Assembly (NCBI GenBank): GCA_944390865.1
Contig: CALXRC010000013.1
Span: 1-57,616 of the forward strand
Length of the DNA stretch: 57,616 nucleotides
Direction: 5' to 3'
Source: an uncultured Spirochaetales bacterium
GTDB lineage: Bacteria > Spirochaetota > Spirochaetia > Sphaerochaetales > Sphaerochaetaceae
Made by a program: the position numbers and the translations under genes. Within the stretch, counting starts at the first letter, position 1. The number at the start of each line of letters is the position of its first letter. This document shows positions 38,298-53,180 of the stretch, in pieces. The notes beneath the pieces are model-generated. The model worked only from the letters and a program-made list of their open reading frames with translations, was not told the origin of the DNA and made no database searches.

Positions 38298-39212
38298 CTA
38301 TTTTTTTGATATTCTGAATTTTGAGCGAAGGCTGTCAGCAATGGCGGTACATTCCTCACGGCTCATCAGATGCTCCATGCCCCAGCGCGCATCATCGCAG
38401 AAAAAGCCCGCAAGGCCGGCTTCATCCTCCCTTCCCTTCCAGGCAGAAAAGCCTGCCGCGTTGATGTGGCTTCCATAACTGCAGCCGGTGAACAGGGATT
38501 TGCCCTCCGGCCTCCAGGGTCTCATCAGATAGACAGAGGAGTCAGGAACATTGTCGCCGATAAAGCGGCAGGAGTCGAAAACAAAGCCGATATCCTCCTT
38601 CTTTCCGCTTGGAGCCGCCACATAGCCAGCTTCGTTTGAGATAATGTCGACATCCTGAAAAAGTGCATCGGCGCCGCCGAAGATGAAATCAACGCCTCCG
38701 GCTATAGAACCGCCTTTGAAATATACGCTGTTCAGCTTTCTGGGCAGAAAGCAGCGCGGCCCGTAGAAACCGCGCTCTTCCCTTTCCTTTTCAGGAAGGG
38801 GTGCAAGGAAAAGCGTGTCCTGATGGCCGTAAAGCCTGACGTTCTCAAGACAGGCGGAATCAACGTCAAGGTAAAGAGCCAGAGCCTGGCCTGCCGTTCT
38901 GCCGCTGCCAGCCTCATTAACAAACGTCAGGTTCTCAAGGCGGAGCCTGTGTCCAGAAAAGAAGGCTGTATAGGAGCGGAAGGTGCCACGTTTTCTACCG
39001 TCGGCCATGATCGTCCTGGCACTGTCAGCAAAGCAGATTCTCACATCTCCCTTTCCGGTGACAGTCAGATCCGCCTTGTCGCAGAAAAGCTTTTCCCTGT
39101 ATTCCCCTTCACTTATTGTCACTCTTGCACTGCATTCATAAGGAACAGCATCCAGCGCTTCCTGAATCGTGTAATAGTCCTCACCGTTTCTTCCAACTGT
39201 CAGCTCAAGCAT
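38298..39212 (-). CDS. Pectinesterase-family protein (CE8), no signal peptide
   Basis: 304 residues of right-handed beta-helix. Family motifs are intact: GQALALYL, the catalytic Asp in GHQDTLF, the second Asp in GGVDFIFGGADALF, and Arg in LMRPWR. CE8 enzymes remove methyl esters from pectin. It begins MLELTVGRNGEDYYTIQEAL with no export signal, so it should act in the cytoplasm on imported methylated oligogalacturonides, or on another ester. No pectate lyase is nearby. It is divergent from the aldo/keto reductase gene. Confidence 0.85.
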   Translation of the reverse strand: MLELTVGRNGEDYYTIQEALDAVPYECSARVTISEGEYREKLFCDKADLTVTGKGDVRICFADSARTIMADGRKRGTFRSYTAFFSGHRLRLENLTFVNEAGSGRTAGQALALYLDVDSACLENVRLYGHQDTLFLAPLPEKEREERGFYGPRCFLPRKLNSVYFKGGSIAGGVDFIFGGADALFQDVDIISNEAGYVAAPSGKKEDIGFVFDSCRFIGDNVPDSSVYLMRPWRPEGKSLFTGCSYGSHINAAGFSAWKGREDEAGLAGFFCDDARWGMEHLMSREECTAIADSLRSKFRISKK

Positions 39213-39262
39213 TTCTATCGGCCTCTCTTCCTGCTATACTATATCTCAAAGAGGAAAAAAAG

Positions 39263-40363
39263 ATGAGTGCAGATGTATTTTCTGATGTGAAAAACAAACT
39301 CGGTTTCGGCTGCATGCGCTTCCCGCTCAGGGCAGACAAATCTGTTGACACAGAACAGGTGTGCAGTATGGTAGATCTCTTCATCTCTGAAGGCTTCAAC
39401 TACTTTGACACCGCACACGGTTACCTTGACGGTCAGAGCGAGACAGTGCTGAGAACCTGTCTCACATCACGTTATCCGCGCTCAGCCTATCTGCTGGCAG
39501 ACAAGCTGTCCAATGCGTTCTTTGAGAAAGAGGAAGACATACTGCCCCTGTTCCGCTCACAGCTTGAAGCCTGCGGTGCTGAATACTTTGACTACTATCT
39601 GATGCATGCGCTGAACAAAAGCTATTATGAGAAATACAGGGCATGCAATGCGTTCGGCATCGTGAGAGACCTCAGGGCGCAGGGTCTTGTCCGTCATATG
39701 GGCATGAGCTTTCATGACAGTGCAGATGTTCTTGATATGATCCTGTCAGAGGAAAAGGACATTGAGTTCGTGCAGCTGCAGGTCAACTATCTGGACTGGG
39801 AGAGCGAAAAGGTGCAGTCAAGGCTATGCTGCGATGTATGCAGGAAGCACGGTGTGCGCGTCATCATCATGGAGCCGGTCAAGGGCGGAACGCTGTCCCA
39901 GCTTCTTCCCGAGGCCGCCAGCGTGCTGGACAGGCTGCCGGACAGGCAGTCCAATGCTTCATATGCGCTGCGCTTCGCCGCCGGAATCGATGTGGTCTCT
40001 GTCGTGCTGTCAGGAATGAGCACCCTTTCTCAGGTTGAAGAGAACACCAGACTCTTCAAATCAGTTAAGCCGCTGAATGAAGAGGAAATGCAGGCCATAA
40101 AGGAAGTGGCGGAAATCACACAGTGCCATGGCTCGATTGCCTGCACAGCATGCAACTACTGTACAGAGGTCTGTCCGGTAAAGATGCCGGTCAGTTCGAT
40201 TTTCGCGCTGATGAACAGGAATGAAGGCACTTATGCCGGGATAACAAAGGAGACGAAGGCTTCAGACTGTCTGAACTGCGGCCGCTGCGAAGCCGCCTGC
40301 CCGCAGGGCCTGCCTATCCGCAGGTATCTGGGCCAGGCAGTTTTCAGATACGAGACAGAATGA
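39263..40363 (+). CDS. Aldo/keto reductase with C-terminal 2[4Fe-4S] ferredoxin domain
   Basis: 366 residues. The aldo/keto reductase barrel starts LGFGCMRFPL and contains FDTAHGY with Asp/Tyr, and MHALNKSY. The C-terminal part carries two ferredoxin motifs, CTACNYCTEVCPVKMP and CLNCGRCEAACPQGLP, for two clusters. Such fusions are frequent in anaerobes; the substrate is unknown. A longer frame begins upstream, but AGAGG before ATG 39263 fixes the start. Confidence 0.88.
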   Translation: MSADVFSDVKNKLGFGCMRFPLRADKSVDTEQVCSMVDLFISEGFNYFDTAHGYLDGQSETVLRTCLTSRYPRSAYLLADKLSNAFFEKEEDILPLFRSQLEACGAEYFDYYLMHALNKSYYEKYRACNAFGIVRDLRAQGLVRHMGMSFHDSADVLDMILSEEKDIEFVQLQVNYLDWESEKVQSRLCCDVCRKHGVRVIIMEPVKGGTLSQLLPEAASVLDRLPDRQSNASYALRFAAGIDVVSVVLSGMSTLSQVEENTRLFKSVKPLNEEEMQAIKEVAEITQCHGSIACTACNYCTEVCPVKMPVSSIFALMNRNEGTYAGITKETKASDCLNCGRCEAACPQGLPIRRYLGQAVFRYETE

Positions 40364-40432
40364 CAGCACAAGGGGCTGAGAGCCAGACAGCCGGCATCTC
40401 AGCCTTCTGTCTCAGCTGATCCGCTTTTTTTT
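40352..40432 (+). terminator. Nested-stem terminator after the aldo/keto reductase gene
   Basis: Outer arms GAGACAGAA (40352-40360) and TTCTGTCTC (40405-40413) enclose inner arms GGCTGAGA (40374-40381) and TCTCAGCC (40397-40404). A run of T follows at about 40424-40432. Confidence 0.6.
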
Positions 40433-40456
40433 CATGTGTTTTTTTCTTCATGGAGG

Positions 40457-40505
40457 TTGACATGAAATATGTTTCTATCTATAGTAACAACCATCTTGTT
40501 ACTAT
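40457..40505 (+). promoter_or_regulatory. Near-consensus promoter overlapped by a palindromic operator
   Basis: TTGACA (40457-40462), 17 bp, TATAGT (40480-40485). A perfect 10-bp inverse repeat ATAGTAACAA / TTGTTACTAT (40481-40490, 40496-40505; 5-bp centre) covers the -10 and the start point. This is the classic arrangement for repression. It directly precedes the AAGGAG of the binding-protein gene. Confidence 0.75.
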
Positions 40506-40518
40506 AAGGAGAAACGCA

Positions 40519-41487
40519 ATGAAAAAACTTGTTCTCACCCTCACCCTCCTTCTTGCCGCACTTTTCCTTTCCGCACAGGCTGCGCCGGAAAGCACAGATG
40601 ATACAGTGATGATCGGGATCTCTCAGCTGATGGCCCACCCCGCGCTGGACAATATTGAACAGGGCATCAGGGATGCTCTTGAAAGCGAAGGCGTGAATGC
40701 TGTCTTCGATACGCAGAATGCCAACGGTGATGTTTCCACAGCCGCATCCATCGCCCAGCTGTTCAGAACTGAAGACTGCGATATCGTTGTCGGCATAGCC
40801 ACTCCGACAGCCCAGGCCCTGGCAAACGTGTTCGATGACAGGCCAGTTGTCTTTGCAACAGTCACTGATGTGGAAGCTGCCGGACTCTCAGGGCTGTCCA
40901 ATGTATGCGGAAGCTCGGATGCAGTTCCCTTTGAAGAGCACTTTGCCCTGATCGAACGCCTGACTGGAGCGCAGTCAATCGGAATGGTGTACACCGCAGG
41001 AGAGGCCAACGGCCTGGCTTCCATGGAGGCAATGAAGGCCATCTGCGAAGCCGCCGGCGTCGAGCTTGTATCTGCCTCTGTATCCAACTCATCAGAAGTT
41101 AGGCAGGCGGCACAGTCCATCATAAACCGTGTCGATGCGGTCTATGTGGCAAATGACAACACAGTCATATCAGCCGTCTCATCGCTGTCAGACGTCTGCC
41201 TTGAGAACAGCGTCCCTCTATTCAGTGCGGATACAACCTCATCCTTTGACTCAGATGTCTTCATCGCCTGCGGCTTCAACTACTACAAGTCAGGCCTTCT
41301 GACAGGCCAGATCGTCAAGAGGCTCCTTGCCGGTGAGAGCCCGGAGGAAATCGGAACAGTGTATCTCACAGACCTTGAGTACTACATCAACCTTGATGTT
41401 GCTGATGAGCTTGGCATAAGCGTTCCAGAAGACATCATTGAAAATGCCGTCTATCTGATGAGAGACGGTGTCAACACTGCACAATGA
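40519..41487 (+). CDS. ABC transporter substrate-binding protein (ABC_sub_bind/TrpX-like), orphan
   Basis: 322 residues with a signal peptide (KKLVLTLTLLLAALFLSAQAAPES, no lipobox Cys). The body matches the ABC_sub_bind family (VMIGISQLMAHPALDNIEQGIRDAL, then FATVTDVEAAGL and AVYVANDNTVISAV). Relatives bind aromatic amino acids or other small nitrogen compounds. No permease or ATPase gene follows. I choose ATG 40519 with AAGGAG; the upstream in-frame ATG 40462 overlaps the -35 box and cannot be on the message. Confidence 0.85.
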   Translation: MKKLVLTLTLLLAALFLSAQAAPESTDDTVMIGISQLMAHPALDNIEQGIRDALESEGVNAVFDTQNANGDVSTAASIAQLFRTEDCDIVVGIATPTAQALANVFDDRPVVFATVTDVEAAGLSGLSNVCGSSDAVPFEEHFALIERLTGAQSIGMVYTAGEANGLASMEAMKAICEAAGVELVSASVSNSSEVRQAAQSIINRVDAVYVANDNTVISAVSSLSDVCLENSVPLFSADTTSSFDSDVFIACGFNYYKSGLLTGQIVKRLLAGESPEEIGTVYLTDLEYYINLDVADELGISVPEDIIENAVYLMRDGVNTAQ

Positions 41488-41502
41488 CACAAAACCTGAG
41501 GT

Positions 41503-41537
41503 CTGAATGGTCTGAGTACGGAATCCAGATCATTCAG
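41503..41537 (+). terminator. Hairpin after the orphan binding-protein gene
   Basis: CTGAATGGTCTG (41503-41514) pairs with CAGATCATTCAG (41526-41537, one G-U), followed by GCTGTTCTTT, a weak T-run. Confidence 0.5.
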
Positions 41538-41641
41538 GCTGTTCTTTAAGAAAGCTGCCAGCAAATCTGCCTCGAAAACCAGCCTGATGTGCATGGGAAA
41601 CATACAGCCCCGATACAAAATTAAAACATGACTTCTTTGTG

Positions 41642-41680
41642 AAAAAACAGGCTTCACTGTCCGAATGGAGGTGAAGCCTG
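41642..41680 (-). terminator. Terminator of the yhf operon
   Basis: On the minus strand a perfect 10-bp stem (41648-41657 with 41671-41680) is followed by six T residues (41642-41647), ten nt after the yhfW stop. Confidence 0.88.
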
Positions 41681-41689
41681 CCATCATTT

Positions 41690-42904
41690 TCATCTCAGTC
41701 CAAGCTCAGGCAGGAACGAAGTTCCGTTCTGCACTGCTTTCTGACCAAGGTAATCGCACACTGAGGCACCCACATCGGAAAGCGTCTTCCTCAGGCCGAT
41801 GCATTTCCCGCTCAGCCCCTGTTTGTAAATGAGCAGCGGCACACATTCACGCGTGTGCTTGCTGTGTCCGATCAGGGGATCGTTTCCATGATCAGCCATG
41901 ACAGTGAGGATATCATCAGGACCAAGGTGTCCAAGCAGCTCAGCCAGCCCCCTGTCGGCAATTTCCAGAACTGACTTGTACTCAGCCGTTGACTGGGAAT
42001 GCCCTGCCAGGTCCGTTTCCTGAATGTTGGTGCAGATGAATCCAGTATCCATCTTATCAAGTTCCCTGATCGTGTGCTCAAAGCACTCAGCTGTGGGAAC
42101 GCAGGAAATGGACAGTCCCTTGTCGTTTGCCACAATGTCCGCGACCTTGCCTATCAGCACGACGGGAAGGCCGGCTTCAGTGAGTATGGTCGGGGCCTGA
42201 ACTGTCTTGTCGACTCCATAGCCGAGGTGGAGGCAGTGATAGTCCTTCTCGTAAGAGCGGGAGAGTGCTGAGGCAATGCCTATGAACCTGCCTTCCTTCA
42301 CCTGCTCTGCCCTGTACAGGTCGTCCATCGTGTTTCCTCTTCCTCCGAACACAATGACGCGGCCTACCGTGACAACCTGACGCACCAGCTGCGCGATCTC
42401 GACTTCCTTTTCGAAGCTGATGAAATCAAGCGGAGCCGTGACGTTATAGCACATGCCCAGATCGGCTTCCAGGTTGTCTGCCACTGTCACATAGTCATCG
42501 GCAACGACATAGCGCAGTCCCTGTCTTGTGATGATCTCTGTCTTGTGCCCATGAGCTCTCAGAATCGCCTCGACATCGTCAACACGCTCCTGAAACGGAT
42601 GCACATCAGGTTTTTTAGGCAGTGTGCCCATGATCTCCTGATGGCCCATGAATGTGTCAGCTCCGAAGTGCATGAGCTCGCTTTTCCCCCAGTTTGCGGA
42701 AGGAGAGAACTTCATCATGGCACTTTCCGAGCCGAAGGCATTCATCAGGCCCAGCCTTTCCAGCGTCGCAAGCTTCAGCTCCGGCCAGTCTTTCAGTATG
42801 GAGCCGAGCGTGCTGGCCTTCTCGTCTCCGGGTCTCACTATATGGGCATCAGCCATGGCGCCGATGCCAAAGCCGTCAAGCACTATTACGACAAAACGCT
42901 TCAT
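41690..42904 (-). CDS. yhfW: YhfW, phosphopentomutase-like alkaline-phosphatase-superfamily protein
   Basis: 404 residues. Start MKRFVVIVLDGFGIGAMADA holds the first metal Asp. Later ETDLAGHSQS and VMADHGNDPLIGHSKHTRECVPLL carry the further metal ligands, as in DeoB. The context (yhf operon) and divergence make YhfW, of unproven function, more likely than the nucleoside-salvage DeoB. A phosphosugar mutase or phosphoryl transfer on the pathway intermediate is the obvious guess. It overlaps yhfX by 4 nt and is the last gene before the terminator. Confidence 0.85.
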   Translation of the reverse strand: MKRFVVIVLDGFGIGAMADAHIVRPGDEKASTLGSILKDWPELKLATLERLGLMNAFGSESAMMKFSPSANWGKSELMHFGADTFMGHQEIMGTLPKKPDVHPFQERVDDVEAILRAHGHKTEIITRQGLRYVVADDYVTVADNLEADLGMCYNVTAPLDFISFEKEVEIAQLVRQVVTVGRVIVFGGRGNTMDDLYRAEQVKEGRFIGIASALSRSYEKDYHCLHLGYGVDKTVQAPTILTEAGLPVVLIGKVADIVANDKGLSISCVPTAECFEHTIRELDKMDTGFICTNIQETDLAGHSQSTAEYKSVLEIADRGLAELLGHLGPDDILTVMADHGNDPLIGHSKHTRECVPLLIYKQGLSGKCIGLRKTLSDVGASVCDYLGQKAVQNGTSFLPELGLR

Positions 42905-44058
42905 TGTTTTTTTCTCCCGAGGCTGTCATAGACAGCAGCAATGCGCGGCTGTCCGTCTGACAGGCCTTCAACAAGCACAACATCAGATCTTGTGACAAAG
43001 ATCTGGAATCTGTAAGCCATGATGACGCTGTCACCGACATCAGCCTGGCAGTCAAGTCCGAAATGATAGTCAATCGACTCATCTGAGGGAGGAATCACCC
43101 CTGCCTTTTTCATGGAATCAAGTTTTCTTCCGACAAGAGCACTGCTGACATGGCTGCGGCGGTAATGCCCTCCGCCGTATGCATACGAGAGTCCCTGGAA
43201 GCGGTGCGACACTTCACTCAGATAAAGAACGCAGGGTCTCTCCTCAAGATCCTTCTGCGCATGCAGCGGTGTCGTTCCGGTCAGTCCGTGCCCCGGCTCC
43301 CCGCAGTTGCCTCCGCGCTCAGCCATCAGACGCAGCGTCCTGCAGCAGGTGGCACTGGGCGTGTTTGTTATCAGATTGTCATGTCCGGCAGCACAAAGCA
43401 TCCGCTCAGCCTTGAGCACAGTGTTCAGGTTGGCAGTCGGCGCAATGTCGCCGCACTCTGAGTTGTAAAGATAGCAGGGAAAGGACGTGACCCCGCTGAT
43501 TCTTATGTTCTCAAGTGCCTCAAGCTGTCTGACCGTATCTTCAAGTCTGCTGATATGAAAGCCGGCAGACTGCCCGGAATAGAGCATGTCGCAATCATCA
43601 TAGACACGGATGAAGATATTCTGCACGCGACAAAGACGTCCTGCAGCCTCGTTTATTGAACGCGCCTTTTCCAGAGAATACACTGTCATGTTGTCAACGC
43701 CGTAGGAGATGAGGGACGAAAGCATCGACTCAGGTATCTGGACCAGATGCCCGGCATTGCCGATCCTTATTCCGTTTTCCATCATCACGGCAGCTTCCTT
43801 GAAATCAACAACGACAGCACCGTCATAGCCTAGATCATCAAGAAGCCTGGCCAGATAAGGATTTCTGCCAAGCTGCTTGAGCATGTAATACAGTCTGATT
43901 GAGTGACTGTCAGCTTCCTTCTTTATTGCCTCTGCATTGCAAAGGAAAGTGTCGACATCGACAATATAGGAATCAGGCCGGATGAGTCCGTTCTGGTGGG
44001 CATAGACTGCATAGTCTGCCAGTGCACTGTTCTCACGTATGGTCTTTTCAAGAAACAC
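42901..44058 (-). CDS. yhfX: YhfX, alanine-racemase-like PLP enzyme
   Basis: 385 residues of the fold-III PLP (alanine racemase N-terminal) barrel. Probable Schiff-base lysine is in LYYMLKQLGRNP near 56-67, and the second half has VTSFPCYLYNSE and GEPGHGLTGTTPLH. Reaction unknown; family members racemise or eliminate on amino acids. GTG start with AAGGAGG seven nt upstream. It overlaps yhfS by 11 nt and yhfW by 4 nt, so stoichiometric expression is likely. Confidence 0.88.
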   Translation of the reverse strand: MFLEKTIRENSALADYAVYAHQNGLIRPDSYIVDVDTFLCNAEAIKKEADSHSIRLYYMLKQLGRNPYLARLLDDLGYDGAVVVDFKEAAVMMENGIRIGNAGHLVQIPESMLSSLISYGVDNMTVYSLEKARSINEAAGRLCRVQNIFIRVYDDCDMLYSGQSAGFHISRLEDTVRQLEALENIRISGVTSFPCYLYNSECGDIAPTANLNTVLKAERMLCAAGHDNLITNTPSATCCRTLRLMAERGGNCGEPGHGLTGTTPLHAQKDLEERPCVLYLSEVSHRFQGLSYAYGGGHYRRSHVSSALVGRKLDSMKKAGVIPPSDESIDYHFGLDCQADVGDSVIMAYRFQIFVTRSDVVLVEGLSDGQPRIAAVYDSLGRKKQ

Positions 44059-45151
44059 TCACTGCCCTCCTTATGCTCTCAGCCAGTATCCTGAGAATCG
44101 TATCGCTGCCGCTGCGCATCGGATTTATGCGTATCATGCGCTTCTCCAGCAGCGGATCGTATTTGCGGAATGTTCCGGAAATGCGGTAGAACATGGGCAC
44201 TATCTCATACCTGGACTCGGCTCCTACAGGATTGGGAGCCGCGCCGAGCCTTTCAGCCTCCTCCAGGACTCTGTATGCAATATCCTGGTCGAACTCGACA
44301 AGCAGGACCTTGCTCTGGGCATTGGCGATGAAGGCATCGGCAACATGCTCAACCTCACCGCTTTTAAGCCTTCTTACACACTCCTCATTCACTTCAGCCT
44401 GCACCGCAAGGGCTACAGGAGCATAGACAAGACCGTGAAGCACATCCATGGCCTCATGACCCTGCACCTGCATGCCGCCGGAATAGCTCTCCCTTTCCAG
44501 TCTGTCGATGTACTCTGCCTTTCCCGCAATGACTCCTATGCCTTCAGGTCCCAGAAGCTTGAAAGAAGAAAAGCATGACAGGTCTGCACCGCACTGGATG
44601 CCTGTCTTCCTGACTTTCATGACCGCATAGTTGTCATCCGTGATGACAGGAATCTCCTTTATCCTTTTGATGAGCCGGACTACAGTCTCAAGATCATAGC
44701 TGTCATCAGGCTTCTGCCTCGTGTACTGGACAAGGGCGGCTCTGATCTCACTGTGCCGCTCCAGCACTGACTTAAGATCCTCAGGATCATTGAAATCTGC
44801 CTCGACAGTCTTTATTCCCAGCATCTCAAGGCTTGTTGCTGTCGTGTTGTAGACAGGGGCCTTATGCACGAGCAGAGTGTCAAGAGGCTTCAGGACAGCA
44901 TGAAGGGCAAAGCGAATTGCACCTGAGCCGGAACCGCGCACAAGAAGCGCACGTTCGGCTGAGAAGATGTCAGCGATGACTGATTCAGCCTTCTTTGTAG
45001 TCACTGGCTTGTTCAGCCCGGGAACGACGCCCAGATCTCCGCGTGAAAGCATTTCATGGCCGGCAAACACCCTGGTGATGGCATTTACGACCCTGAACTG
45101 CAGCTGTTTTGCTTCATCAACGCTCATTGAATAAAGCGGATATGTATTCAC
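44048..45151 (-). CDS. yhfS: YhfS, fold-I PLP-dependent aminotransferase-like protein
   Basis: 367 residues. Recognisable YhfS motifs: GDLGVVPGLNKP, VRGSGSGAIRFAL, TDDNYAVMKV, the PLP lysine in SSFKLLGPEGIGV, NAQSKVLLVEF and PVGAESRYEI. Mechanism should be transamination or beta/gamma elimination, substrate unknown. I choose the GTG at 45151 with AAGGAGG 5 nt upstream; it yields the start MNTYPLYSMS, equivalent to E. coli. The reading frame from ATG 45241 adds 30 residues that have no RBS and overlap php. Confidence 0.88.
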   Translation of the reverse strand: MNTYPLYSMSVDEAKQLQFRVVNAITRVFAGHEMLSRGDLGVVPGLNKPVTTKKAESVIADIFSAERALLVRGSGSGAIRFALHAVLKPLDTLLVHKAPVYNTTATSLEMLGIKTVEADFNDPEDLKSVLERHSEIRAALVQYTRQKPDDSYDLETVVRLIKRIKEIPVITDDNYAVMKVRKTGIQCGADLSCFSSFKLLGPEGIGVIAGKAEYIDRLERESYSGGMQVQGHEAMDVLHGLVYAPVALAVQAEVNEECVRRLKSGEVEHVADAFIANAQSKVLLVEFDQDIAYRVLEEAERLGAAPNPVGAESRYEIVPMFYRISGTFRKYDPLLEKRMIRINPMRSGSDTILRILAESIRRAVSVS

Positions 45152-45224
45152 AGACACCTCCTTAAGACACGCTCCTGCTATTCTGAGCAGGTCTTGCCAG
45201 GCCCTCTTCCGGCCCTCGTCAGTC

Positions 45225-46106
45225 TCATCCTCTTCTCTCAAGAAGCCTCTCAGGGTTGCTGCACAGCATCATATGGACATCCTCACAGGTAAAACCGGCC
45301 TTGTACAGGGCAGGAATGAAGGAAGTCATGATATATGAATACCCCGGGCCTCCGTTTGCCTTGAGGTGACTCTTGCGCGTGATATCCATGGACAGCACTA
45401 CCTGGCGGCCATAGCCGCGCTGGAAAATCTTCTTCAGCGTCGCGATCCTGTACTCATCACTCTGGTAATTGAGCTTTCCGACTGTATCAAACCCAATGCT
45501 TGCACCGCGGTCGAGAACGGAAAGGATATAGTCAGGATCGCTGTTCAGGTCCATATGCCCGATCACGACACGGGCAGGATCAACGCCCTCAGAAATGAGA
45601 AGGTCAAGCTGCTCATTGGCAAGGGTTCCCAGAGTCGTGTGCGTGGTTATCAGCGCACCTGTCCCGGCTGCGGCCTTTGCAGAAGCCGTGAAGACTTTTC
45701 TCTCTATCTCTGTCATTGCATTTCTTGATGTTCCGATCTCGCCGATGGCACTGGCCTTTATTCCTGTATCCTCAATGCCGGACTCAAGCTCGCTTATCAT
45801 CAGGTCTGCAAGCTCTGAAACCGTTTTTTCATATACATAGTCCGGCAGGAAAGGTTCTTTATAAAAACCGGTGCACATCAGGATGTTCATTCCGCTGGCC
45901 TGTGCCACATCCCTTATGTACGCGGCATTCCTTCCCATGCCGAGGTTGGTGACTTCCAGAATGTTGTGGACACCGAGCTCCTTCAGCGCCATGAACTCCT
46001 CTATCGTCTTTTCCTTCTCGTCCAGACGGCAGTCATCATCTTTTTTCACGCCGGACAGATCAATCGTCACATGCTCATGCATCAGAGTATATCCTGCTAA
46101 CAGCAT
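45225..46106 (-). CDS. php: Php (YhfV), phosphotriesterase homology protein
   Basis: 293 residues of the amidohydrolase-superfamily phosphotriesterase group. Metal ligands visible are H10-x-H12 (MHEHVTIDLSG), Glu in GEIGTS near 126, His in TTHTTLG, His in IGHMDL and Asp in LSMDITRKSHLKANGG. Close to E. coli Php, whose natural substrate is not known; a lactonase or phosphodiesterase role is plausible. GGAGG stands 6 nt before ATG. It overlaps the amidase-like gene by 10 nt. Confidence 0.93.
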   Translation of the reverse strand: MLLAGYTLMHEHVTIDLSGVKKDDDCRLDEKEKTIEEFMALKELGVHNILEVTNLGMGRNAAYIRDVAQASGMNILMCTGFYKEPFLPDYVYEKTVSELADLMISELESGIEDTGIKASAIGEIGTSRNAMTEIERKVFTASAKAAAGTGALITTHTTLGTLANEQLDLLISEGVDPARVVIGHMDLNSDPDYILSVLDRGASIGFDTVGKLNYQSDEYRIATLKKIFQRGYGRQVVLSMDITRKSHLKANGGPGYSYIMTSFIPALYKAGFTCEDVHMMLCSNPERLLERRG

Positions 46107-47053
46107 TGCCAGCCTCCATTTGAAAAATGATTGTCAAGATTGGAAAAATAACGCTCAGCAACAGGGTTGAAGCTGCATGCGAGTTTTTCCGCTTCGCTCA
46201 TGATGGCACTGAAGCCCTCGTCATCCGGGCTGCTGATGAGCAGCGTGCAGCAGGCAAGCCTGTCTGAGGGAACAGAAAGTGCGCTCAGCCCTGCCATGTT
46301 TGCAACACGCATCAGCCCCTTCATCGAAGCTCTCTGGTCAAGCCTCGTGCTTTCATCCCAGGAGCCTGAAATGCTGTCCCCTGTTCCCATAAGGTCAACA
46401 GGACCTTCATGGGAAACAAGGAGCACGCCCGGCCTCACATTCTCCCTGAGCCAGCTAATCAGAGGTCTCCTGGCCCCGAACCGGTCAAGGTCAGCAGGGC
46501 ATTCCACTATCTCATACTCAATGCTCTTAAAGCTGAATGTGAGGGCCAGAGCGCGTTTCAGCACTGCAAGATCCCTTGCGATGAAACCCAGTGACGGAGT
46601 GAACGTGATTCCGTCAGTGGATGTCTTCGCAAAGGTTCTCATTCTCTTCTCATCAAGAGCCGGTGAGATGAAGCCGTAGAGGTTGACGCTTGCAGCCGGA
46701 GCCAGCACGGATCCGCCTCCGTCAGTGCCCAGTGCGATGTCATTGATGTGATAAAGGACATTCAGGGCGCTGCCTGATGAAGAGCCTGTCATGGGCCTCA
46801 TCGTCAGCGGATTGATCAGGGCCGGATCAACAGCCCTTCCGCCCAGGCTGGCGGCATCTATTGTGTGAAGGTATATGCCCGCCCTCTCAAGAGAGCGGAC
46901 ATATTCAGGATCAATTGCATTTGTATCCTTGAGGCCGAGGTACAGACATGAAGGACCTGCATGGTCAATCACAGAGGGAAAGACCCTCTTCACAGTTCCG
47001 TATGGATTCATCATTGCCACAAAGGTCTTCTTGGCAAATACCCCGTCCGTCAT
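46097..47053 (-). CDS. Short amidase-signature-family protein inside the yhf operon
   Basis: 318 residues, shorter than typical amidases (450-500). Core parts are visible: a candidate catalytic Lys in YLGLKDTNAID near 39-49, the cis-Ser region TGSSSGSALNVL near 89-100, and GTDGGGSVLAPAAS with the nucleophile Ser, followed by NLYGF. It may hydrolyse an amide or carry a binding role. I do not know it from the E. coli yhf operon. It overlaps php by 10 nt and follows yhfT by 8 nt, so it is fully integrated in the operon. Confidence 0.8.
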   Translation of the reverse strand: MTDGVFAKKTFVAMMNPYGTVKRVFPSVIDHAGPSCLYLGLKDTNAIDPEYVRSLERAGIYLHTIDAASLGGRAVDPALINPLTMRPMTGSSSGSALNVLYHINDIALGTDGGGSVLAPAASVNLYGFISPALDEKRMRTFAKTSTDGITFTPSLGFIARDLAVLKRALALTFSFKSIEYEIVECPADLDRFGARRPLISWLRENVRPGVLLVSHEGPVDLMGTGDSISGSWDESTRLDQRASMKGLMRVANMAGLSALSVPSDRLACCTLLISSPDDEGFSAIMSEAEKLACSFNPVAERYFSNLDNHFSNGGWQCC

Positions 47054-47061
47054 CTCATACC

Positions 47062-48354
47062 TCAGATCAGGTGAATGACCAGCAGCAGGTTCAGCAGGAT
47101 GCCGAAGATGATACAGGCCACAGGTCCGATTGCCAGATCCACAATAGGCTTCTTGCTCTTTCTGTTGAGCAGGAAGGTTCCGATCACGAACAGAGCGCCG
47201 ATTCCTGAGTATCCGCAGGCTGCGGCAGACATTGCCTCAGCAGCTACAATACCGCCGCCGAGAAGTGCGATCTCGAGAACCTTGTTCATGGAAGTTCTGA
47301 CATACTCGCCCATATCCTTGACGCCGGGGAAGCGGTCCATGAGCTTTGCAAAGAGGTTGATGAGCAGGACTTCGACAATCATGACGGCAGCGCCGGCGAT
47401 GAGGGCAATGAACGGATGTCCGTGAAGCAGAAGTCCGACAACGAAGACAAATGTACATCCGGCGGCGCCATAGACACCTGTTACGATGGCTGTGGTGAAT
47501 ACCAGAGGAATGAATCCGATTGCTCGGGCAAAGGCTGTGAGGGCCGCATTTGTATACTGATGCTCAGCAAGCAGAGCCAGAGATGCAGGGTCGCCTGCAA
47601 GCATTTCAAGGCTTGTGCCCATTGCGATGAGGCCGCCGATGGCTGCCAGGAAGTACCAGTTCTTTCTGATTCTGGCAACATTGCCTTCAAATCCTGCTGT
47701 AAGATCCTGGTTTGTGCTCTCTGTTCCCTTGGTTCTGGTTGCAAACACGATCATCATGATCATGCCGGCCAGCATGGCCATGCCTTCAGCGTTGAGGGAG
47801 ACTGTGCTTGAACCGATTGCGAATGAACCCCACTTCTTGAAGATGAAGTAGACAAGTACGGTCACTGCTGCTGTGATCAGGCCTTTCTTGAATCCATGCT
47901 GATAGGCGACGCCTACTGCAGGGAAGATTGCGAAGGCCACTGTGACGAAGTTGGAGACGGAGCCCAGCTCGTTCGTGAAGTTGTAAGGCATGAGCGCGAA
48001 CAGGTCGACAACGAACTCGAGTCCGACAAGAACCAGCAAGCCATAGACAGCACCGATGACACCGGCTACTATCCAGCCGATCTTTGTGGCAGGACAGAAC
48101 GAACCGATGATATCAGTCGTGAGCAGCAGACAGTGAATGAGAATGATGCTTGCTGCAATTGAGGTCGGAATTCCAAAGCCGATGACAAGACCGAAGCTGA
48201 TGGCAAAGGACATGGCTGCCAGCTCCTTTCTTGATATCTCCTTATTGAAATACTGACCTACGATAGGCCTGAATCCATCATTGAAAACCGCAATACCCTT
48301 ATTGGAGAGTATGGCAGCCAGGCCTCCGATCAGAGCGATAACCACGTACCTCAT
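47062..48354 (-). CDS. yhfT: YhfT, putative membrane transporter
   Basis: 430 residues, about twelve membrane segments. It starts MRYVVIALIGGLAAILSNKGIAVFNDGFRPIVGQ and contains FGIPTSIAASIILIHCLLLTTDIIG, as expected for YhfT. Presumed importer of the pathway substrate. AAGGAGG lies 7 nt before the ATG, which overlaps the yhfU stop as ATGA. Confidence 0.88.
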   Translation of the reverse strand: MRYVVIALIGGLAAILSNKGIAVFNDGFRPIVGQYFNKEISRKELAAMSFAISFGLVIGFGIPTSIAASIILIHCLLLTTDIIGSFCPATKIGWIVAGVIGAVYGLLVLVGLEFVVDLFALMPYNFTNELGSVSNFVTVAFAIFPAVGVAYQHGFKKGLITAAVTVLVYFIFKKWGSFAIGSSTVSLNAEGMAMLAGMIMMIVFATRTKGTESTNQDLTAGFEGNVARIRKNWYFLAAIGGLIAMGTSLEMLAGDPASLALLAEHQYTNAALTAFARAIGFIPLVFTTAIVTGVYGAAGCTFVFVVGLLLHGHPFIALIAGAAVMIVEVLLINLFAKLMDRFPGVKDMGEYVRTSMNKVLEIALLGGGIVAAEAMSAAACGYSGIGALFVIGTFLLNRKSKKPIVDLAIGPVACIIFGILLNLLLVIHLI

Positions 48355-48722
48355 AAAGTACCTCCTTCTTTTTTCCTGAGAATCTCAATGAGCAGCGGAA
48401 CAACCTGGTCCTTGTGCTGCGCAGTAAAGCCGAAGGCTGTCTTCCCGCTTCTCACCTCATCCTCAATTTCTTTCTCGCTAGATATCCTGCCGGGCATGGA
48501 GATTGTGGCACATTTTGCCTTCCCGAGAAGAGCCAGCGCCATTGCCAGGGCTCCTCCGCCTCCAGTGTTGCAGGCTCCAAGATAATAATCGTAAGAGCCT
48601 TTCTTCATGGCCATGGTCGCATCAAGATCATTTTTGATGTCCACAACCGCATCCGGCAGGCCTGCTTTGACCAGAGCAGCAATTTCCTGCTTGTCGATCT
48701 GACCGCCAATGACGATTTTCAT
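48351..48722 (-). CDS. yhfU: YhfU (DUF2620 family)
   Basis: 123 residues, small alpha/beta protein beginning MKIVIGGQIDKQEIAALVKAGLP and carrying a Gly-rich loop NTGGGGALAMALALLG near 52-67. Resembles an EIIB-like or nucleotide-binding fold in outline. Function unknown. It is always found next to YhfT, which suggests a cytosolic partner of the transporter. AGGAGG before ATG. Coupled (ATGA) with yhfT. Confidence 0.88.
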   Translation of the reverse strand: MKIVIGGQIDKQEIAALVKAGLPDAVVDIKNDLDATMAMKKGSYDYYLGACNTGGGGALAMALALLGKAKCATISMPGRISSEKEIEDEVRSGKTAFGFTAQHKDQVVPLLIEILRKKEGGTL

Positions 48723-48740
48723 TTCTGCTCCTCCTTTTGC

Positions 48741-49097
48741 TCACGATAAGAGATTTAGAATATGGACAAGTAAGAACTGTCTCTCACTGTCGCTGAATTC
48801 GATATCACAATGCTCAAGCAGACTGTCCCTTATTTCAAGCGCTGCCTGATAGCCCTCTTCCTCCTTCAGGCTCTCAAGGACGGCCTCATCATAGCCTGCC
48901 TCGGCATCCTTGTTTATTGCTCTCTGGCTCGCCATTGCCAGATGAGTTATGAATGTCTCAAGGCTGTCGCTGTCATAATCCCTGTCGCAGAAGACAGAGG
49001 CGGCATAGCGCGTGAAGTCAGCAGCCTGCTTTGACACGACCCCCGCACTCTCAAGTATTCCGATGCGCTTTAACTGTTCTTCCAGCTGACTCATCAT
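48741..49097 (-). CDS. yhfY: YhfY-like PRD-domain protein
   Basis: 118 residues consisting of one PTS-regulation-type domain: conserved His in FITHLAMASQRAI near 44-56, and FLLVHILNLLS at the end. PRDs are phosphorylated on His by PTS proteins in antiterminators and activators; here there is no DNA-binding part. It follows yhfZ by 9 nt. The role may be to sense PTS state for YhfZ. Confidence 0.83.
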   Translation of the reverse strand: MMSQLEEQLKRIGILESAGVVSKQAADFTRYAASVFCDRDYDSDSLETFITHLAMASQRAINKDAEAGYDEAVLESLKEEEGYQAALEIRDSLLEHCDIEFSDSERQFLLVHILNLLS

Positions 49098-49106
49098 TTT
49101 CCCCCT

Positions 49107-50027
49107 TTAATAAACCGGCACTCTTCGTTCCATTATACATTCATCAATGACGCGCATTGTCTCATCCTTCGTGACTCTGGAAGTAAGCAGTCTGTCAAGA
49201 GTCCAGTTGTCCTTATGTATGACCACCACGGCAGAGGTGAAGGAATCGGTATACTGCTGGCGCGGAAGCTGGATGACAGACAGTTCCTGAAGCGCCGGAT
49301 GATCCATCACGGCATCATAGTTCCAGACACCTGCATCGATTCTGCCCTCAAGCAGCGCACTGACAGTCTGCTGGGTCCTCAGGCTGACAAACTCAACCGG
49401 AACAGAAGCAGTCACTGCCAGCGTGATTGATTTCTGGTCAAGAGAATTCTCATCATAGGCGACTCTCATGCCTTTTCTTATTCTGTCATTGCCCCTGCGC
49501 ATCACCAGCACATGGCTTGACAGATAGCTTTCCGGTCCGAGATCAAGCGAAACCTTCACGTTCATTCCTTCCTGAATGAGCTCAAGAGCCGCATAGCGGG
49601 AGGTTATGGCAAAGTGGCATGTGCGTGAATCAACCAGCCTCACACGGCTCTGAGCGCCGCGTGCATAGGCCATGTTGAAGGAAAGATCGGAAAGCTGGTC
49701 GTAAAAGGCGCTGGCAAGACCTTCATAACGCCTTGAATAAGGAAGAGGCATTATTCCCAGAATTTCCTTTTTTGTGCAGCATCCCTGAAGCTTTCTGTAA
49801 TCGAGGGCCTTGATGTAGCTGCCCTCATGGCCATGGCGGGAAAAACTTGCCGCACCGGTCTTCTCCAGATAATCGAAGGCATTCTTGACTGTGCCGCTGG
49901 ACACGCCGATAAGCTGATGATACTCAATCATCGGCCTTACCCTGTCCCCCGCTTTCTGGGAAAGCAGATCATAGGCTATACACTCCGCTGCATAGGCAAT
50001 CTTCTGCAGACTGAGGCTTTCAGCCAT
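49107..50027 (-). CDS. yhfZ: YhfZ-like transcriptional regulator of the yhf operon
   Basis: 306 residues. An N-terminal winged HTH of GntR character (IEYHQLIGVSSGTVKNAFDYLEKTGAASFSRHGHEG near 33-68) is joined to a periplasmic-binding-protein-like effector domain (LGIMPLPYSRRYEGLASAFYDQL, then MRVAYDENS). It is first in the operon and so probably autoregulates through the palindrome at 50041-50064. AGGAGG lies 4 nt before ATG. Confidence 0.85.
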   Translation of the reverse strand: MAESLSLQKIAYAAECIAYDLLSQKAGDRVRPMIEYHQLIGVSSGTVKNAFDYLEKTGAASFSRHGHEGSYIKALDYRKLQGCCTKKEILGIMPLPYSRRYEGLASAFYDQLSDLSFNMAYARGAQSRVRLVDSRTCHFAITSRYAALELIQEGMNVKVSLDLGPESYLSSHVLVMRRGNDRIRKGMRVAYDENSLDQKSITLAVTASVPVEFVSLRTQQTVSALLEGRIDAGVWNYDAVMDHPALQELSVIQLPRQQYTDSFTSAVVVIHKDNWTLDRLLTSRVTKDETMRVIDECIMERRVPVY

Positions 50028-50040
50028 CTTACCTCCTCAT

Positions 50041-50104
50041 CAATTTTCAACTTTTTGAAAATTGGCTATGAGATTATTGTAAACCCGCCCAAACCTGCTG
50101 TCAA
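50041..50104 (-). promoter_or_regulatory. Promoter and palindromic operator of the yhf operon
   Basis: On the minus strand TTGACA (50104-50099), exactly 17 bp, TACAAT (50081-50076). The RNA start would be near 50069. Just downstream are perfect 10-bp inverse repeats CAATTTTCAA (50041-50050) and TTGAAAATTG (50055-50064), ideally placed for a repressor, probably YhfZ. Confidence 0.75.
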
Positions 50105-50383
50105 ACAAAATTCACAGCAAAATATACGCTCATCAGACCTGCAACCGGAAGGGACTGCAAAATGTCAATTATGATAGGCTGAGGACCTGAAAAGGCCCGC
50201 TGTCTCAGGGGCCGGAAGAGTGAGGGCTTCATAAAAACAGCAGTCATGATTCCAAGCTGCCTCACAGTTGTACATCTTCTGGGAAATGACAGGACTTTGC
50301 GCCTTAAAATGCAGAAAGCAGGACCTGAGCCCTGCTTTCTGATGATTGACCTGGTGCTGTCTCTTTCAAAGAGGCATTCCCGC
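50105..50383. other. Non-coding stretch between yhfZ and the PepSY gene
   Basis: Short overlapping frames here carry no recognisable protein. The only clear structure is the hairpin at 50313-50340, plus a looser GC-rich inverse repeat around 50180-50210. Confidence 0.5.
50310..50340 (-). terminator. Hairpin terminator after the PepSY gene
   Basis: AGAAAGCAGG (50313-50322) and CCTGCTTTCT (50331-50340) form a perfect 10-bp stem with an 8-nt loop. On the minus strand GCATTTTAA follows, a short T-run. Confidence 0.65.
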
Positions 50384-51100
50384 TCAATAGCGTACCCTGT
50401 CTCTCTCCCAGTCTGTGAAGCGGCCTGAAGAGGCATCAAGCTCAAACTCATATTCATAGCCGTCATGATAGAGCTCACCTTCCCAGATCATCCTGCCGTC
50501 GTCATTTGACTGTCCCATGCGGATCGAATCGGCATCAGCACCCTTGACCCTGTCAAGAACAAGCTGGACGGCCTCATCATAAGTGATGACATCATCATCT
50601 GTGTACGGCCTTTCAAAGTAGTCGACACTTGCAGAGAGGATGTGTCCGCAGCGGCTGACCTCATAGTCGTAGTAGGCCTCATTTGTCGTGAACTCGAACT
50701 CATAGATGCGCTGGCCTCTGTCCCTGTCGCTCTTCATTCTGACAGAGATAGGGTCTGTCACGCCGGCATCGGCAAGAGCTGCTGCATAGGCCTCATCTTC
50801 AGTGACCTCTGCACCGGTGCAGTCATTCCAGCTGCGGCGCAGTTCCTTCTTTGCGCTGATAAGGGCACCTGTCTCATGATCAAGCTCGAAATCCCATTCT
50901 GCATCTGAAGTGACCAGCTCAATCTCCCAGACATCCCTTCTGTCCTCACGGTCTCTGTGGACTTCACTGTAGCGGACATCATCAGAACTGACTGCCGCGT
51001 AATCAAGGGCCTCATTGTATGCACTCTCCCTGTCAAGGGGAAGGGCGAAAACTGCAGCAGCTGAAATCAGCAGCACTAAAACTAATCCGATTTTCTTCAT
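50384..51100 (-). CDS. Exported protein with three PepSY domains
   Basis: 238 residues with a signal peptide (KKIGLVLVLLISAAAVFALPL). Three successive PepSY repeats lie at about 24-85, 100-160 and 170-232; each ends in a Tyr/Trp-x-Phe/Tyr-Glu-Phe/Leu-Asp/x-Gly pattern (WDFELDHETGAL, YYDYEVSRCGHI, YEYEFELDASSG). PepSY domains occur in protease inhibitors and in proteins tied to metal or antimicrobial stress sensors. The ATG at 51100 has GGAGAG upstream. It follows the histidine kinase gene by 63 nt and is probably part of that operon. Confidence 0.8.
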   Translation of the reverse strand: MKKIGLVLVLLISAAAVFALPLDRESAYNEALDYAAVSSDDVRYSEVHRDREDRRDVWEIELVTSDAEWDFELDHETGALISAKKELRRSWNDCTGAEVTEDEAYAAALADAGVTDPISVRMKSDRDRGQRIYEFEFTTNEAYYDYEVSRCGHILSASVDYFERPYTDDDVITYDEAVQLVLDRVKGADADSIRMGQSNDDGRMIWEGELYHDGYEYEFELDASSGRFTDWERDRVRY

Positions 51101-51163
51101 TATTTTTTCTCTCCTGTTTGTTTTATCTGTCTTCATTATCTGTCATGAATCATTAAGCGAACA

Positions 51164-52486
51164 TTAAGAAATCTCATTTTTTCCAGAAAAAGTGAAAATG
51201 AATTCTGAGCCCTCCCCCTGCCTGCTGATCAGGCTGACAGAGGCGCCATGAGCTTTCGCGATCGCTTTCACGATAGACAGGCCGAGGCCGCAGGAAGAAC
51301 CGGTTCTGGAGCTGTCTTCCTGAAAGAAGCGGTCAAATACAGCCTGCTGGTTTTCCTCCGCAATCCCGATACCGTCATCCTTCACGCTGAAAGCAGGTCT
51401 GCCGTCATCCGCAAGATAGGTCCGGATCCAGATATGTCCGTTCTCTCTGGAATACTGAATGGCATTTGACACAAGGTTGATAATCACGCGCGTGATCATG
51501 TCCTCATCCGCCTTCACCATCAGCGGCGCAGTACACTCTGATTGTGCCGTGATGCCCTTCTCCTCAAGCTGCGGGCGGAAGGACTCAAGCACTGTCACTG
51601 CACTCTGTGACACATCAAACACACTGAGGTTCAGCGTGAGCCTGTCCTGATCTGAGCGTGCAAGCATCAGGAGCTGGGCTGTGAGCCTTGTCATCCTTCC
51701 GTTCTGGTCTTTTATGGATTCAAGCGCCTGGACGAGCGTGCTGTTGTCGCTGCTGTGCCTCAGAGCGTATTCACATTCCGCATTGATGACAGAAAGCGGC
51801 GTGCGCAGTTCATGCGACACATCGCTTGTGAACTGCTTTTCCTTTCTGAATGCCTCATCCAGACGGTCAATCATCCTGTCAAAGGAGGCTGCCAGAGAAT
51901 GGATCTCATCGTTTCCGCTTTCTATGTTTATCCTGCTGGACAGGTCAGCCGACTGGGAAATTCTGTCTGCTGTTTCTATCATGCGGTCGACAGGACGGAA
52001 ATTCCTCCTTGTGATGAAATAGCCGCCGAGTGCGGAAAGGGCAATGACCACAGGAAGGAGGATGAGTGATATCAGCTCGAGCGCGCCTATGTAGGAAACA
52101 GTCTGGGAGGAACGCATCAGTCCCCTGACTGCATAGCCGTCCTGCTCCTGGGCATAGACATACCAGCCCGCCTGCTGGAGCACAGCGGAAGACACAGAAG
52201 GAGCTTGAGGCACTCCGTCAAGCTCGCTGCCTTTCACCATCATGCCGCTTTCATCAAACACCTGGTAATAGATCCCGTCATCGAACTCGTCAACCTCATC
52301 CAGATCGATCCTTCCGCCGCGGCCGCGCATATCGCCAAGTGCGTCATGGACCCCTTCAATCAGGTCATTGTATGCCTGACGGCGGGCAAGGATATCGCTT
52401 GTCGCGACAATCGTGACGGCGACAACGACAGCAATGACAGCCATCCATGCCGTATACCATATGACAATCTTCTTTTTCAGCGTCAT
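51164..52486 (-). CDS. Sensor histidine kinase (EnvZ/OmpR class)
   Basis: 440 residues: TM1 near 10-28, an extracytoplasmic sensor loop, TM2 near 145-165, HAMP, then H-box FTSDVSHELRTPLS with the phosphorylated His, N-box NLVSNAIQYS, G1 DDGIGI and G2 GLGLSIVKA. ATG at 52486 shares its A with the regulator stop (TGATG). Signal unknown; the surrounding genes suggest a metal or envelope cue. Confidence 0.92.
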   Translation of the reverse strand: MTLKKKIVIWYTAWMAVIAVVVAVTIVATSDILARRQAYNDLIEGVHDALGDMRGRGGRIDLDEVDEFDDGIYYQVFDESGMMVKGSELDGVPQAPSVSSAVLQQAGWYVYAQEQDGYAVRGLMRSSQTVSYIGALELISLILLPVVIALSALGGYFITRRNFRPVDRMIETADRISQSADLSSRINIESGNDEIHSLAASFDRMIDRLDEAFRKEKQFTSDVSHELRTPLSVINAECEYALRHSSDNSTLVQALESIKDQNGRMTRLTAQLLMLARSDQDRLTLNLSVFDVSQSAVTVLESFRPQLEEKGITAQSECTAPLMVKADEDMITRVIINLVSNAIQYSRENGHIWIRTYLADDGRPAFSVKDDGIGIAEENQQAVFDRFFQEDSSRTGSSCGLGLSIVKAIAKAHGASVSLISRQGEGSEFIFTFSGKNEIS

Positions 52487-53163
52487 CAGCAGTTCCTGCA
52501 CTGTAGGATGTAGCCAGAACCGCGCACTGTGTGAATGAGCTTGGGTTCAAAGCCGTCATCAATCTTCTTTCTCAAGATGCTGATGTAGACATCAACAACA
52601 TTCGACTGTCCGTCATAATCCCAGCTCCATATGTGGGAGCGGACTTTTTCCCTGTCCAGCACCTGATTCTTGTTGAGCATAAGGTATTCAAGTATCTGGT
52701 ATTCCTTTGAGCTGAGCTCGATCTCGCGTCCGCTGCGGGTGACTCTGTGGCTTGACAGATCTAGCACAAGGTCAGCCTCAGTGAGCACATTGTTAGCTCT
52801 GGCCGCACTGCGGCGCACCACTGCCCTGATGCGGGCAAGCAGCTCGTCAAAGGAAAAAGGCTTTACAATATAGTCATCTGCTCCGCTGTCCAGGCCCTGG
52901 ACTCTGTCATCTATGCCGTCCCGGGCTGTCAGGAAGAGAGCCGGAGCCTTTCCTCCCCTGCTCCGGTAGTGCTTCAGCACTGAAATCCCGTCCAGCTTTG
53001 GCATCATGATGTCAAGCACGGCAAGATCATACTCGGCCGCTTCAAGATAATCGAGCGCCGCCTCTCCGTCAAAGACGGAATCCACACTGTAGCCGGCCTC
53101 TTCCAGCGTGCGCGTTATCAGCCTGTTGAGCTGTTTTTCATCTTCCGCGACAAGAAGTCTCAT
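52486..53163 (-). CDS. OmpR-family response regulator
   Basis: 225 residues. Receiver domain with phosphoacceptor Asp in AVLDIMMPKLDG near 50-61, switch Thr in FLTARD and Lys in VKPFSF. C-terminal winged helix ends with VVDVYISILRKKIDDGF and IHTVRGSGYIL. The start ATG 53163 has GGAGG at 6 nt. Its own upstream region has OmpR-style 11-bp repeats, implying autoregulation. Confidence 0.93.
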   Translation of the reverse strand: MRLLVAEDEKQLNRLITRTLEEAGYSVDSVFDGEAALDYLEAAEYDLAVLDIMMPKLDGISVLKHYRSRGGKAPALFLTARDGIDDRVQGLDSGADDYIVKPFSFDELLARIRAVVRRSAARANNVLTEADLVLDLSSHRVTRSGREIELSSKEYQILEYLMLNKNQVLDREKVRSHIWSWDYDGQSNVVDVYISILRKKIDDGFEPKLIHTVRGSGYILQCRNC

Positions 53164-53180
53164 CAAACGCCTCCAGACAG

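Follow-up and report, generated by a model that had tools for sequence, protein, structure and literature searches.

We describe a cluster of nine genes in a 57,616-nucleotide stretch of DNA (contig CALXRC010000013.1 of assembly GCA_944390865.1; hereafter the window) from an uncultured Spirochaetales bacterium, whose genome amounts to 1.96 Mb in 44 contigs with a completeness of 88.5%. The cluster corresponds, in enlarged form, to the yhf/php operon of E. coli, which is known but uncharacterised. What is new concerns three points: an amidase apparently dedicated to the cluster, a fold of RpiB type (type B ribose-5-phosphate isomerase) predicted for the YhfU protein, and a parallel with a second operon, built around an SFCGS protein (PF14272). 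At the level of sequence the cluster is characterised by nine families, by their conserved candidate catalytic residues and by their co-occurrence across phyla in several orders.

The genes occupy the minus strand of the window (41690-50104 with the promoter-like site) in the order yhfZ-yhfY-yhfU-yhfT-amidase-php-yhfS-yhfX-yhfW, and the spacing between their reading frames, from 50027 down to 41690, is -17 to +18 bases (Table 1). A preliminary description, made without database searches, had read them as nine minus-strand genes running from one promoter to one terminator and had recognised eight of them as E. coli YhfZ, Y, U, T, Php, S, X and W. This operon reading is sound and corresponds to a real cluster: the nine reading frames were confirmed, Pfam assigned all nine proteins, and all eight E. 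coli families are present on one strand in a single cluster, with BLASTP identities of 24-55%. The promoter-like site is the best of 11 promoter-pattern matches in 41000-51500 (shuffle mean 7.6). The hairpin downstream of yhfW, which is not in the list of that same pattern scan, has a folding z of -2.98, equal or better folding being obtained in 2 of 200 shuffles. Judging from these signals, the nine co-directional genes between the two sites likely form one operon.

Table 1. Features of the yhf cluster and its borders in the window
Feature	Position	Strand	Basis	BLASTP identity to E. coli MG1655 protein
Promoter-like site TTGACA-17-TACAAT, sigma-70-like	50076..50104	-	consensus match only, 11/12 positions	
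Palindrome CAATTTTCAA-N4-TTGAAAATTG, between promoter-like site and yhfZ	50041..50064	-	candidate operator	
yhfZ, GntR-type regulator with YhfZ C-terminal ligand-binding-like domain	49107..50027	-	NCBIfam NF041241, above cut-off	32%
yhfY, stand-alone PRD protein	48741..49097	-	Pfam; His52 in 38/38 loci	24%
yhfU (DUF2620), predicted RpiB-fold protein, 123 residues	48351..48722	-	Pfam, structure prediction; Cys51 in 38/38 loci	39%
yhfT (PF10797), predicted membrane protein	47062..48354	-	Pfam; presumed permease	33%
Compact amidase-signature protein, 318 residues	46097..47053	-	Pfam, 36.3 against a 27-bit cut-off	
php, phosphotriesterase-family metal hydrolase	45225..46106	-	Pfam, conserved residues	49%
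yhfS, fold-type I PLP enzyme	44048..45241	-	Pfam	55%
yhfX, alanine-racemase-like (fold-type III) PLP enzyme	42901..44058	-	Pfam	43%
yhfW, phosphopentomutase-like enzyme	41690..42904	-	NCBIfam; nucleophile position Thr84 kept	51%
Terminator-like hairpin with U-run, 12 pairs, behind yhfW	41642..41682	-	folding against shuffles	

To compare clusters we assembled 38 loci: the window, E. coli, 20 from one genome-collection scan, 5 more from spirochaetes and 11 more from Bacillota. Loci L034 and L035 (counterparts of L003 and L004), L037 and L067, as well as the short versions L001, L023-L025 and L043-L055, were left out before counting. All 38 were selected by yhfT, which is thus present by construction, and many are closely related (the YhfT of L017 is identical to that of L019), so that the counts are not independent. 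With the reference proteins, tblastn found Y, U and T in 38 loci, Z, S and X in 36, Php in 35, W in 34 and the amidase in 31; L007, L013, L015 and L021 are cut by contig ends, which explains every absence of S, X or W and two of the three absences of Php. U adjoins T in 37 loci and Y adjoins U in 35. The full order of the window is the commonest (23 of the 38), and six of the 12 order strings are this main order, whole, cut or lacking genes, which leaves seven relative orders. The E. coli K-12 operon (yhfS-yhfZ, b3376-b3383) shares the eight families, the single strand and the same neighbours within the cluster but differs in its order, Z-Y-X-W-Php-U-T-S, and has no amidase in the cluster. The proposal, first made from this difference alone, that co-occurrence survived rearrangement thus holds on the wider sample: the families stay together across phyla and behave as a co-inherited unit.

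Carriers are found well outside enterobacteria, in Spirochaetota, Bacillota and Fusobacteriota. In a Spirochaetota sample yhfT is present in 4 of 198 genomes, the window's own included; it is above the cut-off in 5 of 101 relatives (own included), in 3 of the 16 that are the window's own genome or ranked in its genus, and in 12 of 398 Bacillota, the Bacillota samples used here for yhfT, SFCGS and the amidase being centred on G290, a genome picked as a yhfT carrier. A 705 kb plasmid of Cetobacterium somerae (Fusobacteriota; L079, NZ_CP092520.1, 147118-168347) repeats the window's arrangement of all nine genes. On a Vibrio halioticoli plasmid (L080, AP024877.1) the genes read Z-Y-Php-U-T-X-W; neither YhfS nor the amidase was matched in the 25 kb inspected. 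In the YhfT tree the window clusters with three loci from spirochaete metagenome-assembled genomes (MAGs; 100/99), with Lachnospiraceae next, and five other spirochaete loci, one of them from the window's own family, fall outside this group. This placement points to horizontal transfer, in one direction or the other, between this spirochaete lineage and Lachnospiraceae. As side observations, the YhfT of L015, L021 and L022, titled Paenibacillaceae MAGs, is near-identical to that of Lacrimispora (mis-binning or recent transfer), and the yhfW matches of L014, L016 and L064 are split over two reading frames (decayed gene or assembly error).

The ninth gene

The preliminary description left the ninth gene unnamed. 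It appears to encode a cluster-specific amidase. The Pfam match is restricted to the signature region, and K42, S91 and S115 are invariant in the 31 loci with the gene and in 29 of 29 aligned homologs (hand-picked from 120 listed homologs and three loci); we take these residues to be the Lys-cisSer-Ser triad of the family. The signature region and the candidate triad are common to the amidase signature family (GatA, malonamidase, FAAH), but the solved relatives listed have 412-636 residues and the cluster protein only 318. It is a family of its own within the amidase-signature proteins, tied to yhf clusters.

The distribution of this family follows that of yhfT. Among the 398 Bacillota genomes its profile matches nine at E <= 1e-20, all nine belonging to the 12 yhfT carriers and each having the amidase within about 1.6 kb of yhfT (Fisher p 3.5e-16, without correction for kinship). 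A further set of 12 yhfT carriers shares three genomes with the first; six of these 12 have the amidase, each at the cluster, and the other six gave no match at E <= 1e-10. In Clostridium citroniae yhfT and the amidase are fused in one reading frame of 768 residues. Two Bacillota loci whose YhfT groups with that of E. coli in the midpoint-rooted tree (L063 and L064) both carry the amidase, so that its absence from the E. coli cluster may reflect a loss. From these comparisons the putative amidase is a dedicated partner of the yhf cluster, though lacking from some clusters.

YhfU, YhfT and the SFCGS operon

YhfU had been proposed as one half of a YhfT/U transporter. Structure prediction does not support this as worded, giving YhfU a sugar-phosphate isomerase fold of RpiB type. 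Cys51 lies after the third strand, as in RpiB, its register to the RpiB loop cysteine being set through SFCGS; we presume that it matches that cysteine in role as in position. YhfU nevertheless differs from RpiB/LacAB: it is shorter (123 vs 146 residues), and the Asp-His motif after the first strand, which we take to be functional in RpiB and which the genome's own RpiB has, is missing from all 22 YhfU rows listed for the 38 loci. Profile comparison of YhfU with this RpiB gave E 0.11, not significant alone, and the link in sequence therefore runs via SFCGS. Homology with SFCGS extends over the full length (hhalign score 38.2 over 112 columns, against at most 16.5 for 20 shuffles and one reversal), and a single-sequence Pfam scan reaches SFCGS for 4 of 15 YhfU rows (best E 0.0045), the window's row being under the cut-off. 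An apparent YhfU fusion in L058 turned out to be an over-long upstream reading frame.

The SFCGS operon was scanned gene by gene at one locus (L078:3046-11129, minus strand), SFCGS itself being above the cut-off in 5 of 348 Bacillota. It consists of a Mga/PRD regulator, an amidohydrolase, a stand-alone PRD, SFCGS, DUF4312, DUF4311, DUF4310, a SelA-like pyridoxal phosphate (PLP) enzyme, a KDGP aldolase and a HAD phosphatase. Like the yhf cluster it thus combines a stand-alone PRD, an RpiB-type small protein related to YhfU, orphan membrane proteins, an enzyme of the amidohydrolase superfamily and a fold-I PLP enzyme; the aldolase and the phosphatase stand where the yhf cluster has YhfX and YhfW. 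In L077 (8134-8883, minus strand) a PRD-like part and SFCGS even share one reading frame, the PRD match being weak (E 0.06). The parallel may be convergent, since the membrane proteins have no detectable kinship to YhfT and the PRDs do not form a common subfamily: YhfY stands no nearer to the PRDs linked to SFCGS than to those of regulators. No characterisation of the SFCGS operon was found in the open-access literature, which leaves out most subscription journals.

In both systems an RpiB-type protein stands beside a PRD and orphan membrane proteins, which argues for a partner in transport or sensing. The genomic company of YhfU suggests that it serves YhfT or YhfY, and we consider this more likely than a true ribose-5-phosphate isomerase. 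YhfT is likely the permease of the cluster, its role being deduced from context. The YhfT profile also catches xanthine/uracil permeases at L037:8060-9451 and L067:8546-9925, below the cut-off (E 6e-6 and 5e-5); a kinship with these permeases was not backed by hhalign.

Other enzymes, regulators and neighbour genes

The metal hydrolase, the phosphomutase-like enzyme and the two PLP enzymes of different folds are as named in the preliminary description; the roles given here to catalytic residues come from general knowledge of the families. Php keeps H10, H12, E123, H156, H184 and D241 in 35 of 35 loci, positions which we take, after E. coli Php, to be metal ligands. It does not qualify as phospho-furanose lactonase (99.1 vs 630 bits) or as PRK09875 (340 vs 486 bits). 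K228 of YhfS and K61 of YhfX are invariant (36/36 each), and the families closest to YhfS, after YhfS itself, are Cys/Met-type lyases. The start of yhfS is more likely the GTG at 45151 than the TTG at 45241: this GTG is codon 31, and the alignment with the E. coli structure begins at residue 32.

YhfW can be aligned over its entire length with a solved phosphopentomutase. The nucleophile position, presumably acting as the Thr of phosphopentomutase does, is Thr in 28 and Ser in 5 of 33 aligned rows, and the metal-site residues D10, D298, H302, D338, H339 and H350 are conserved. A loss of the catalytic Thr (TGH to MGH) was considered and rejected, as the alignment puts the nucleophile two residues earlier. 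YhfW passes PRK12383/NF009049 (561.9 vs 254 bits); it resembles DeoB in full-length alignment, nucleophile and metal site but scores under the DeoB equivalog cut-off (138.7 vs 341.2 bits). Across the cluster, solved relatives of E. coli or Shigella type (4j8l, 4kbx, 1bf6, 4lef, 2ozz) carry names without function.

Family assignments agree with the regulator pair YhfZ/YhfY. The 24-base palindrome ahead of yhfZ has perfect 10-base arms and occurs once in the window, with zero copies expected by chance; it is possibly the YhfZ operator. Near the yhfZ starts of several other loci there are palindromes only loosely similar to it, with no consensus established, and several loci yielded none.

Flanking genes were scanned in a few loci (about 45 genes). 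In a spirochaete (L040:3824-18950, plus strand) the yhf cluster lies inside a phosphotransferase system (PTS) gene set: a Mga/PRD regulator, EIIA and EI precede yhfY, EI overlapping it by 8 bases, and yhfW is followed by EIIB, EIIC-GAT, two transketolase halves and a SAM_HAT-family gene. L033 has an EI gene behind yhfW and L009 has nagB there, a near-identical N-terminus being seen in L006. L018 and L036 have genes resembling 5'-nucleotidase next to the cluster, which in L018 is also followed by a PfkB kinase. These neighbours lean towards phosphorylated sugars. In the window itself a PepSY protein, a histidine kinase and a response regulator lie upstream on the same strand (50384-53166), and on the downstream side (38298-41487) there are a pectinesterase, an aldo/keto reductase carrying a 4Fe-4S domain and an ABC_sub_bind protein.

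A tentative pathway and its alternatives

Our preferred reading, which we hold tentatively and at somewhat less than even chances, is that the cluster imports and degrades a small, amide-bearing, phosphorylatable compound resembling a sugar. YhfT would import it; the amidase would probably make the first cut, freeing an amine or an acid, and the bond cleaved by Php would be that of an ester, a lactone or an amide. YhfW would shift a phosphate along a skeleton of pentose type, an amino carbon would be inverted by YhfX, and YhfS would eliminate or transfer the amino group to give products for central metabolism. YhfZ may sense the compound or a breakdown product, and YhfY may report the state of the PTS phosphorelay; YhfU, with its RpiB fold and retained loop cysteine, would serve one of its two neighbours. 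We infer these steps beyond what the families and conserved residues tell. The substrate proposed earlier, an amino-acid-linked phosphosugar or phosphodiester, is a possible one; nothing was found in favour of a phosphodiester.

Several points weigh against this reading. The compound, the enzyme activities and the single transcript are all predictions from sequence. Neither fold nor profile comparison related YhfT to a known transporter, so that import itself is a presumption. Php is below the cut-off of every NCBIfam model that it matched, so that the bond types given above are candidates. The amidase is missing at 7 of the 38 loci, E. coli included, and cannot be essential to every version of the cluster. 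Each neighbour clue is confined to one or a few loci.

A salvage of pentoses or nucleosides appears rather unlikely. The substrate would carry a ribose, YhfW would interconvert pentose 1- and 5-phosphates, YhfU would be an active isomerase yielding the ketopentose phosphate, and the amidase and PLP enzymes would handle an attached amino acid. The phosphopentomutase nucleophile and metal-site residues kept in YhfW agree with this, as do the fold and the invariant cysteine of YhfU, the 5'-nucleotidase-like genes abutting the cluster and the transketolase halves of L040; but YhfU lacks the Asp-His motif, the genome already has its own RpiB, and the operon of the related SFCGS protein shows no pentose enzyme among its other genes.

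We judge improbable a catabolism of amino acids without a sugar, where an acylated or amidated D-amino acid is opened by the amidase together with Php, racemised by YhfX and relieved of its side chain through elimination by YhfS, YhfW acting on the phosphate of a non-sugar intermediate. This would account for two PLP enzymes with invariant lysines, for the lyase-type kinship of YhfS and for a dedicated amidase, but YhfW is a full-length phosphopentomutase relative above its own NCBIfam cut-off with its residues kept, and the PRD and PTS genes point to sugars.

Very doubtful, finally, is the idea that YhfY-YhfU-YhfT and, likewise, the PRD-SFCGS-DUF4310/4311/4312 set represent a novel type of transporter working by PTS-like group translocation, phosphate passing from the PTS to YhfY His52, from there to YhfU Cys51 and on to the substrate while the orphan membrane protein imports it: both residues are invariant, the three genes are neighbours, EI overlaps yhfY in L040 and a PRD precedes or (weakly) joins SFCGS, but the cysteine of EIIB is usually at the first strand and that of YhfU after the third, profile comparison showed no resemblance of YhfT to EIIC-GAT, PTS genes are lacking from the cluster in E. 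coli and at most loci, and YhfY is not specifically related to the SFCGS-linked PRDs.

The preliminary description stated that no substrate was established for any member, and indeed no paper giving one, or a function for the cluster, was found in searches of the open-access literature, where most subscription journals are missing. Tables in PMC7513527 list for the Lactobacillus rhamnosus clade a PRD, a DUF2620, a membrane, a phosphotriesterase-related and a YhfX-family protein, several with near-consecutive accessions and with no function attached there. In E. coli, 5022 of 5426 complete genomes have a close match to K-12 yhfT, the marker of the cluster.

Under the preferred reading of an imported amide-bearing compound, the amidase tells something of the chemistry of the substrate, which in most lineages seen would enter with an amide bond. 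Through the predicted RpiB fold of YhfU and its link to SFCGS, DUF2620 and PF14272, both annotated without a function, are brought together, as are two operons not yet characterised. This would open the way to metabolite screens aimed at the cluster and to testing directly whether transport follows a new mechanism.

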